This document shows, piece by piece, positions 31,381-35,372 of a stretch of DNA of 35,372 bases. The notes beneath the pieces were generated by a model. It made no database searches. It was not told where the DNA came from and saw nothing but the letters and a program-made list of their open reading frames with translations. The number at the start of each line of letters is the position of its first letter. Position 1 is the first letter of the stretch. The translations under genes were made by a program, and so were the position numbers. This DNA comes from Acaryochloris sp. IP29b_bin.137 (GTDB taxonomy: Bacteria > Cyanobacteriota > Cyanobacteriia > Thermosynechococcales > Thermosynechococcaceae): the NCBI RefSeq assembly GCF_028285745.1, contig NZ_JANQOP010000259.1:1-35372 (forward strand). The letters run 5' to 3'.

Positions 31381-34335
31381 ATGAGTAACAGTCACAAAGT
31401 TAGAATTTATGAGTTATCAAAAGAGTTGAATTTAGAGAATAAAGACATTCTGGCGGTCTGCGAAAAGCTAGATATCGCCGTCAAGAACCATAGCAGCACC
31501 ATTACTGAAGCAGACGCAGCTAAGATCCGGGATGCCGCTGCTCAAAAACGCCCCTCTGGTCCTCGAACGACTCCCCCCAGACGTACAGCCTCTGCCAAAG
31601 ATGAGAAAGGGCGTAAGCCCCGACCTGTTGCGAAACCGAACAAGCAAGATCGGCCCAAAAAGCAGCAAATCTTGGAGCTTCGCAAGCAAAAAACTAAACC
31701 CCCTGCTGAACCGATGGCACCCTCCTCGGCCGTTAAGGCTGCTAGGCCGCCAGAGTCGCTGCAAGCCCCGAAGCCCATACGTCCTCAACCTACTCAGGGG
31801 GCAGAGAAGCCCACCCTGACGCCCAAACCGACTGTTGCTAGCCAGCCCCCCTCAACTTCGGTACCCAAAGCCAGTGCTCCGGGGCCCGCGTTGTCTCCTC
31901 CGCCTAGGACAGACAAGGTGTTGACGAAACCCGCCACCCAAGTGCCCGAAATCGTCAAACCCCAACTTCTCAAAAAGCCAACCTTGAATCAGCCGGCTGA
32001 GCCCACGGTGCCGGAGGTATCCCAGACCGCTCCTCCGACAAAGCCGCCTGTTTCGAATCAACCTGAAAAAACTGTTGAGACAGAGCCGCCCCGGCCTCGC
32101 TTAGTTCGGCCCATTTCCATTGCAAAAGCAAAAGCTGAAGCAAAGGCCGCTGCCGAAACGTCACAGTCAACGGCTGGATCCGCCAGTAACGACACCACTG
32201 AACTCCTCGTTCTTACTCCCCCCACATCCCGTCAGAAGAAAGATAAACGGTCGTCTAAACCAGAAGAATTTGAAGATCGTCCTGCCAAGGTTTCTAAATC
32301 GAGTCTGAAGCAAAAGCGACGAACGCAAAAAGAGATCGAAGAAGATGAAGATGATCTCTTGGCTGCTGATGACACCCATAACCAAGCTGTGATTGATGTC
32401 AGTCAGTCCCTGGTGCGGCCACCTAAACCCAAATCGATGAAGCAGTCTAAGCCTGCGACGGTCCCAATTAATCGGACGCCAAGTAGTTCCAAAGGCAATC
32501 GGCGTCAGCGCAATCGGTACCGCCAACAACAGGAAGCAGAAGTCGAACGGCCCACGACGCTGACGTTAACGACTGAGTTAACGGTCCAAAACCTAGCTTT
32601 GCAGTTAGTTGTTCCCGAAACTGAGGTCATCAAGATCCTCTTTATGAAGGGCATTGCTGCCAACATTAATCAAGTTCTTGATATTGAGACGGCCACCATG
32701 GTGGCTGAGGAACTAGATTGTATCGTTGAAACCCAGGCAGAAGAGTCTGAAGCCCGAAAAGTTTCAGAAATGCTGGATGTTGAGGATTTAGAAAATCTTC
32801 AATCCCGGCCGCCGGTGGTGACCATTATGGGCCATGTCGACCATGGTAAAACAACCCTCTTGGATGCCATTCGCGAAACCAAGGTTGCCCAGGGTGAAGC
32901 AGGGGGGATTACCCAGCATATTGGCGCCTATCACGTTGACTTACCCCATGAAGATGGGGTACAGCAGGTGGTGTTTTTAGATACACCGGGTCACGAAGCC
33001 TTTACCGCAATGCGGGCTCGGGGGACCCGAGTCACAGATATCGCCATTCTGGTGGTGGCGGCGGATGATGGCGTACGACCTCAAACCTTAGAAGCCATTA
33101 GTCATGCCCGAGCCGCAAAAGTGCCGATTATTGTGGCCATCAACAAGATTGACAAAGAAGGGGCTCAGCTAGATCGGGTGCGGCAAGAGCTGAGTGAGCA
33201 TGAGCTCGTCCCTGAAGACTGGGGGGGCGAGACCGTTATGGTCCCTGTGAGCGCCCTCAAAGGCGAGAACTTAGACACCTTGTTAGAAATGATTCTGCTG
33301 GTTGCTGAGGTCGAAGATCTCCAGGCCAATCCCAATCGCCCCGCCAAGGGCACAGTTATTGAAGCCCACCTCGACAAGGCCAAAGGTCCAGTTGCTAGCT
33401 TGTTGGTTCAAAATGGAACTCTTCGAGTTGGGGATGTCTTGGTGGCTGGATCAGTGTTTGGTAAAGTCCGGGCGATGGTGGACGATCGAGGCGACCGAGT
33501 GGATACCGCCAGCCCATCTTTTGCCGTTGAGGTGCTGGGCATGAGCGAGGTCCCTGCCGCTGGAGAGGAATTTGAAGTATTCACAGATGAGAAAGAAGCG
33601 CGCAGTCAAGCAGGCCAAAGAACGGATCAACAGCGCCATACTCGCCTACAGCAAGCGATGGCATCCCGACGGGTCTCACTCAATGCGCTGTCTGAACAAG
33701 CTCGTGAAGGGGAACTGAAGGAGCTGAATTTAATCATTAAAGCAGATGTGCAGGGATCAGTTGAAGCTTTATTGGGATCCCTTGCTCAATTGCCTCAAAA
33801 TGAAGTTCAAGTCCGGGTATTGCTGTCTGCACCAGGTGAGATTAGCGAAACAGACGTCGACTTGGCAGCTGCGAGTGGGGCCGTCATTATTGGCTTCAAC
33901 ACCAGCTTAGCCAGTGGGGCTCGTCAAGCGGCGGATCGGGCTGGGGTCGACATCCGTGAGTACGACATTATTTACAAGCTGCTGGAAGATATTGAAGGGG
34001 CCATGGAAGGTCTCCTCGAACCTGAGTTTGTAGAGGAGGACTTGGGTGAAGCCGAAGTTCGGGCCGTCTTCCCTGTGGGACGAGGTGCGATCGCAGGTTG
34101 TTACATCCAATCCGGCAAACTCGTGCGCAATTGTCGGCTGCGGGTTCAGCGCAATAATGAGATTGTGTTTGAAGGCTTCCTAGATTCCCTGAAACGGATG
34201 AAAGACGATGTCCGCGAAGTTAACTCTGGCTATGAATGTGGGGTGGGTGTCGATAACTTTAGCGGGTGGACTGAAGGGGATCGGATTGAAGCCTATCAGA
34301 TGGTCACTAAGCGGAGAACCCTATCGGCTACCTAA
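31381..34335 (+). CDS. infB: Translation initiation factor IF-2
   Basis: IF-2 is the GTPase that places initiator tRNA on the ribosome. The 984-residue protein has an N-terminal IF2_N domain ([20 protein letters not shown]), then a long Pro/Lys/Ala-rich disordered region (about 55-390), a second IF2_N-like domain (about 398-450), and the GTPase core. G1 is GHVDHGKT (Gly484 onward), G3 DTPGHEA (Asp534), G4 NKID (Asn588) and G5 VSALKG. Domains II to IV end in the fMet-tRNA binding part ([20 protein letters not shown]). The long disordered N-terminus is normal for cyanobacteria. ATG at 31381 is preceded by AGGGG. It closes the rimP-nusA-infB cluster. Confidence 0.97.
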
Positions 34336-34811: not shown

Positions 34812-35276
34812 CTAGTCCACCGTTGTTCTATATTCCATAATCTGGCAGGTACGACCCGTAATCCGCTGCCAGTGAAATTGCATTTGCCCCTGTGCTTCTG
34901 GAATTTTGCCCATCGTGCAAAATATCGCGTATAGGATTGATTCTTGCCAGGTATGGTCTAGGCGCTTGCGCAAGCATATTTTCAAGCCTAAGGCGAGATA
35001 GGTCACTCCGCCTAAAAGGCTCCAGCCATGACTCCAAAATAAGGAGCAGAGAATGGACAGGGGTAACATTAGGCCCCACAGCCAACTGCGGAGGCTCTCC
35101 CGCACCCAATGCCTCAGGCGACCGATCATGTATCCAGGCCCTCTCGGCATAGGCATGCCCTGCTCGCCGAGTTCGCTGCCACCATTGACCAAACTGGGTG
35201 ATCCCCGCATCATGCCAAGTCATAGTTGCGTCGATGCGAAGAATCCGCCAATTCTGCTGTCTTAACCTGACACACA
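34812..35276 (-). pseudogene. Glycosyltransferase family 2 gene, 3' exon, frameshifted
   Basis: Read on the minus strand from 35276, the frame gives CVRLRQQNWRILRIDATMTW, then HDAGITQFGQWWQRTRRAGH and AYAERAWIHDRSPE. The expected continuation is in another frame: RHWVRESLRSWLWGL, a membrane-helix region, then LYAIFCTMGKIPEAQGQMQF, ending MEYRTTVD at 34812. Together these match, from memory, the C-terminal part of a cyanobacterial membrane-anchored family 2 glycosyltransferase (QFGQWW-RT-RAG-AYAE and GK-PE-x-GQ motifs). The shift of frame falls at about 35111-35113, after SPE. The upstream part of the gene is cut off by a group II intron at 35276/35277, and the catalytic domain is outside the window. 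A sequencing error could explain the frameshift. Confidence 0.7.
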
Positions 35277-35372
35277 GTTAGGGTCGAGTGACAGGTCACC
35301 CTGTCACCCTCCCATTCAGAACGGTGCATGAGACTTTCGAACTCACACCGCTCCTCAACAATACGGCTGTTG
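35277..35372 (-). mobile_element. Group II intron, 3' end (domains V and VI)
   Basis: Read on the minus strand, 35353-35319 folds into the conserved domain V: outer stem GAGC/GTTC with the catalytic AGC triad, GGTG/CACC, a two-base TG bulge, TGAG/CTCA and a GAAA tetraloop. Domain VI follows (35318-35277): stem GTGACAGG/CCTGTCAC with GTGA loop (35288-35307), and a lower GGG/CCC pair with A unpaired eight bases from the end, the expected branch point. The intron ends in TAAC at 35277. A small stem CAACA/TGTTG beyond 35354 may be the base of domain IV. The reverse transcriptase, if present, lies outside the window. Confidence 0.88.

Follow-up and report, generated by a model that had tools for sequence, protein, structure and literature searches.

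Bacterial group II introns are described as lying mostly outside housekeeping genes (PMC4424553, PMC6003770), and cyanobacteria are singled out for carrying introns in such genes (PMC4424553). The introns TeI3 and TeI4 of Thermosynechococcus elongatus, which are related to the CL/IIB1 intron EcI5, form multicopy families with differing EBS and targets, encode an RT-X-D-En protein, and insert by base-pairing-directed reverse splicing (PMC2882425). In Trichodesmium erythraeum, many sense-oriented group II introns are reported to splice in protein genes, and splicing in vivo is described as giving putatively functional mRNA (PMC4649490). Group II introns in protein genes of cyanobacteria are already in print; among the matches listed for group II introns together with Acaryochloris, titles and the first parts of abstracts mention none of the introns discussed here. 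The intron of the present locus resembles TeI3 and TeI4 in belonging to a multicopy cyanobacterial family and the Trichodesmium introns in lying sense-oriented in a protein gene, but its family is distant from the former and its host gene, in contrast to the latter, is frameshifted. The reading that we favour, with a probability of roughly 85%, is that a multicopy mobile group II intron entered a glycosyltransferase gene of Acaryochloris by base pairing with its target, and that this frameshifted gene is probably a recent pseudogene.

The window, i.e., the whole stretch of 35,372 nucleotides that was analysed, is a complete contig (C144) of the draft genome of Acaryochloris sp. IP29b_bin.137 (G000; 373 contigs, 87.8% complete), and the features considered here are collected in Table 1. 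On its minus strand, the Rfam model RF00029 matches positions 35277-35355 with 48.5 bits against a gathering threshold of 40 (E 1e-6 for the window), a score that places the domain V/VI catalytic core of a group II intron at this contig end. The preliminary description had named such an intron and predicted that a covariance-model search would strike its domain V, and this domain indeed lies within the match; no second match to the model appeared in the same genome, for which 150 of 255 candidates were scored. Domains V and VI fold with -14.4 and -23.5 kcal/mol, respectively, and none of 200 shuffled sequences folds equally well in either case. The two-base bulge described for domain V is present in the fold. 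Of the GAAA loop described with it, the Rfam alignment retains the tetraloop after one inserted base, whereas the minimum-energy fold opens a loop of nine bases. In group II introns, the branch-point A is expected eight bases from the 3' end. The A that had been called bulged in domain VI lies at exactly this distance and is unpaired, as is the adjacent G, and its position makes it the probable branch point. The consensus ends of group II introns are 5' GUGYG and 3' AY, and the intron terminates here with CCCTAAC at 35277, after which the exon restarts as TG-TGT-GTC. Within the family, six of 29 genomes, among them the own, contain DNA matches to the 96-base 3' end. The minus strand of 35277-35372 forms the 3' terminus of a known type of group II intron.

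Table 1. Features of the window discussed in the text, with the evidence for each.
Feature	Position	Strand	Evidence and remarks
Group II intron, 3' terminal 96 bases	35277..35372	-	RF00029; contig end at 35372 cuts the intron
Intron domain V (catalytic), 35 nt	35319..35353	-	Rfam alignment; fold z -4.14
Intron domain VI stem-loop, unpaired A at 35284	35281..35313	-	Fold z -5.58
Glycosyltransferase 3' exon, stop codon included	34812..35276	-	Orthologue tblastn, two reading frames
Reading-frame change in 3' exon	35113..35132	-	tblastn with three intact orthologues
infB (translation initiation factor IF-2)	31381..34335	+	Pfam IF-2; convergent with glycosyltransferase, synteny anchor

When a full-length intron from a relative (L031, genome G010) is used as query, two intron 5' ends are detected in the own genome, on contigs C27 and C307, each at a contig end and each starting with GTGCGACCC, in agreement with the consensus. 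A GTGCG end and a 5' exon of the glycosyltransferase had both been predicted for the missing side of the intron, and both are located on C307, where GTGCGACCC immediately follows the exon sequence ...GGC GAA GAA CCC GAG C. Joined to TG TGT GTC AGG of the window, this exon reads in frame as GEEPE-L-CVRLRQ. The three aligned orthologues from congeners (L016, L017, and L018) read GEEPELCLRLR without a gap at the junction, and their leucine codon spans it exactly, being split after its first base. The empty site in all three relatives therefore equals exact excision and bears out the 3' splice site that had been proposed. In the genomes G001 and G004, the glycosyltransferase gene lies between an acetyltransferase-like gene (a name given by eye) and infB, which is the arrangement that C307 and C144 jointly imply; the region of the third orthologue (L063, 8174 bases) contains the acetyltransferase-like gene and lacks infB. 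Because the exons complement each other at one codon and the gene order is that of G001 and G004, the intron is placed by sequence comparison in the sense orientation within the glycosyltransferase gene, as the preliminary description had stated, and a single continuous intron would bridge C307 and C144. The other intron 5' end, on C27 (L042:1502-1597; G000:C27:9878-9973), is preceded by an ABC-transporter-like gene and by a hairpin resembling a terminator, each named by eye, and a search of the own genome for a contig with the matching 3' part found none.

Short-read assemblies are expected to break at repeated introns, and C27, C307, and C144 all terminate within the intron. A full interior is predicted for this copy. 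The G010 intron as query retrieves only the ends from the own genome, and the interior of a plasmid intron retrieves nothing from the own assembly, in a search that had no positive control. A reverse transcriptase in domain IV had been anticipated for this intron; although relatives carry one, the own assembly yielded none that belongs to the intron. Two other reverse transcriptases were considered and rejected. The one on C232 (L002:892-2385, 497 residues) has its best PADLOC match in the type XIII retron reverse transcriptase model (652.6 bits), and the one on C106 (L003:1303-2091, 262 residues, possibly 5'-truncated) matches best the UG4 reverse transcriptase model from position 42 (322.1 bits).

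The host gene encodes a glycosyltransferase whose orthologue L016 matches Pfam Glycos_transf_2, and the protein encoded by the 3' exon is 59-78% identical to L016 and L017 and 44-63% identical to L018. Against all three orthologues, each exon contains one change of reading frame, i.e., two within about 1 kb. In the 3' exon the frame switches at 35113-35114 by comparison with L016 and L017, and the second piece aligned with L018 starts at 35132; in the 5' exon tblastn places the switch at about C307:309-336. Although the junction itself is in frame, the exons form no single open frame after excision. It had been suggested that splicing could restore the message, but since there is a frameshift in each exon, splicing alone would not do so. 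Differences from L016 number 84, 53, and 188 at the first, second, and third codon positions, respectively, and this bias toward third positions points either to recent decay or to consensus errors behind the frameshifts, of which recent decay is more likely. When the exons were submitted to a test for relaxed selection, synonymous differences were saturated.

If the frameshifts were due to assembly errors or strain mixture, the gene could be functional, its intron being spliced out and the enzyme being made. Such a gene would be expected to show the exactly in-frame junction that is observed, its exons look conserved apart from the two frame changes, with differences mostly at third positions, and spliced group II introns are on record for cyanobacterial protein genes (PMC4649490). 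Yet the frame of this gene breaks at two separate points within about 1 kb, whereas 19 other main ORFs of the window (30,414 bases), our own selection from its 36 ORFs, display no obvious break when judged without orthologues, and 18 of them match Pfam families. In addition, a query with the C-terminal part of the glycosyltransferase is unmatched in three of six congeners (G003, G005, and G006), so that the gene may be dispensable, although these genomes are incomplete drafts. Taken together, a functional gene seems unlikely to us, and the glycosyltransferase gene is probably a recently decayed pseudogene, in which the intron has the look of an ordinary parasite of the genome.

Full-length relatives of the intron span about 2.5 kb, and the protein that they encode is a reverse transcriptase-maturase that includes an HNH endonuclease domain. 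The relative in G010 (L031, 573-3104) has an ORF of 603 codons whose product contains the domains RVT_N, RVT_1, GIIM, and HNH above their cut-offs and reaches 293 bits with TIGR04416, under the cut-off of 300. The best PDB chain for a relative's protein (P0003) is 6me0_C (562 aa, 316.7 bits), which is from a T. elongatus intron complex, and among 13 genomes searched with this protein G028 alone is matched, its six best matches being 40-42% identical. In a tblastn search of plasmids with a relative's protein, Acaryochloris plasmids provide the best five among the matches listed. The Acaryochloris plasmid introns considered here are those of pMB07 (L055), pREC1 (L056), pREC3 (L057), pMB04 (L058), and pMB01 (L059). 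Among six full-length introns compared base by base, the four from pMB07, pREC1, pREC3, and pMB01 share all 96 of the 3'-terminal bases with the window, whereas L031 shares 86 and a Leptolyngbya copy (L060) 55; the first 98 bases of the own intron show several mismatches to the plasmid introns. The plasmid introns differ from that of the window in being antisense to a gene for a double-stranded-RNA-binding motif, which is annotated as overlapping the intron 5' end on pREC1 and as lying nearby on pMB07 and pMB01; the same peptide is open in antisense at the sites on pREC3 and pMB04. The copy on pMB04 (L058:1002-4913) is about 3.9 kb long and has an annotated transposase gene inside.

The insertion target of the own intron is similar to those of all five plasmid introns. 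From -15 to +3, 15 of the 18 positions of the glycosyltransferase site agree with the best of the plasmid sites, whereas the top score among 70,708 window positions is 13. At the C27 site, 10 of 15 positions match from -15 to -1, a value reached by 154 of 70,714 window positions. EBS1 and EBS2 borrowed from the plasmid introns, those of the own copy being absent from the assembly, would pair with 10 of 11 bases at both the glycosyltransferase site and C27 and, at the five plasmid sites, with 10 or all 11, and 37 of 70,718 window positions reach at least 10; the extent of the EBS was chosen by eye with the sites in view, which flatters these pairing counts somewhat. Their placement relies on alignment with the Leptolyngbya intron, whose own EBS pair 7/7 and 6/6 bases with its exon. 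The EBS1 loop of L031 pairs with at most three of six bases of its own 5' exon. On balance, the target comparison supports insertion by reverse splicing directed by base pairing. Excised intron RNA together with its protein would recognise GAAGA..CCGAGC/T (the slash marking the insertion point) in the glycosyltransferase gene through EBS-IBS pairing, and the RNA would reverse splice into the sense strand and then be copied into DNA, so that the conserved leucine codon is interrupted behind its first base. If spliced exactly, the exons would be joined in frame at this codon; given the frameshift in each exon, however, splicing would chiefly free mobile intron RNA and would not restore the enzyme. 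Splicing, mobility, and the order of these events are what we infer from the arrangement of the locus and its relatives.

About as unlikely as a functional gene is the idea that the lineage has repeatedly settled, in sense orientation and in compatible phase, in protein genes of Acaryochloris and its kin and has survived there by efficient splicing, the frameshifts being later events or artefacts. The genes concerned would be the glycosyltransferase gene, a DUF3768 gene in G010, and two similar genes in G005, one of them with a weak Transposase_31 match. A survey of 12 5' flanks and 17 3' flanks, from which L040 (G007:C82) was excluded as a match without a 3' end, indeed includes sense insertions within genes at the own glycosyltransferase, at G010 C53, and at two G005 loci. 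At G010 C53 (L031:573-3104), the frame of the DUF3768 gene is open across the joined flanks. In two similar genes at the G005 loci, intron ends occupy the same point (L067 and L068 on C18 and C19, L033 and L036 on C78 and C167). Of the two 5' parts, one has a weak Transposase_31 match and the other matches no family; the two 5' flanks and two 3' flanks, which would pair up as two insertions, agree in phase, and the frame on C167 stops after 23 codons. Antisense copies, however, occur at the five Acaryochloris plasmid sites and as a remnant on the own contig C130, and because of these the lineage is not restricted to the sense orientation. Two further sites in G004 (C148 and C416) are antisense by open frame only, and the remaining flanks, among them G004 C355 with a sense frame of 474 codons on its 3' side, were assigned to neither class.

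The remnant on C130 (L004:1501-1549; G000:C130:12322-12370, minus strand) consists of 49 bases with the same 3' end and is 5'-truncated. It lies antisense in a transposase-like gene (DUF4096, 24.4 bits, below the cut-off of 34.3); an interpretation as simple insertion was dropped, since the transposase frame ends at the remnant, unlike in the relative on C282. The existence of this remnant might suggest that C307 and C144 are not adjacent but carry separate intron copies in two half genes, or that the window holds a similarly truncated piece, yet this is very improbable given that the two exons fit together exactly within a single codon of one gene and that both flanks match the arrangement of G001 and G004.

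A mobile intron that probably entered the glycosyltransferase gene by base pairing, in a gene that is probably a recent pseudogene, carries a lesson for the reading of similar loci: a junction that is exact and in frame is no proof that an intron-containing gene is functional, and the whole exons need to be checked. For Acaryochloris, the locus would clearly illustrate the spread of a bacterial group II intron, with plasmid relatives seated at targets of the same type and a nearly matching site beside infB occupied.
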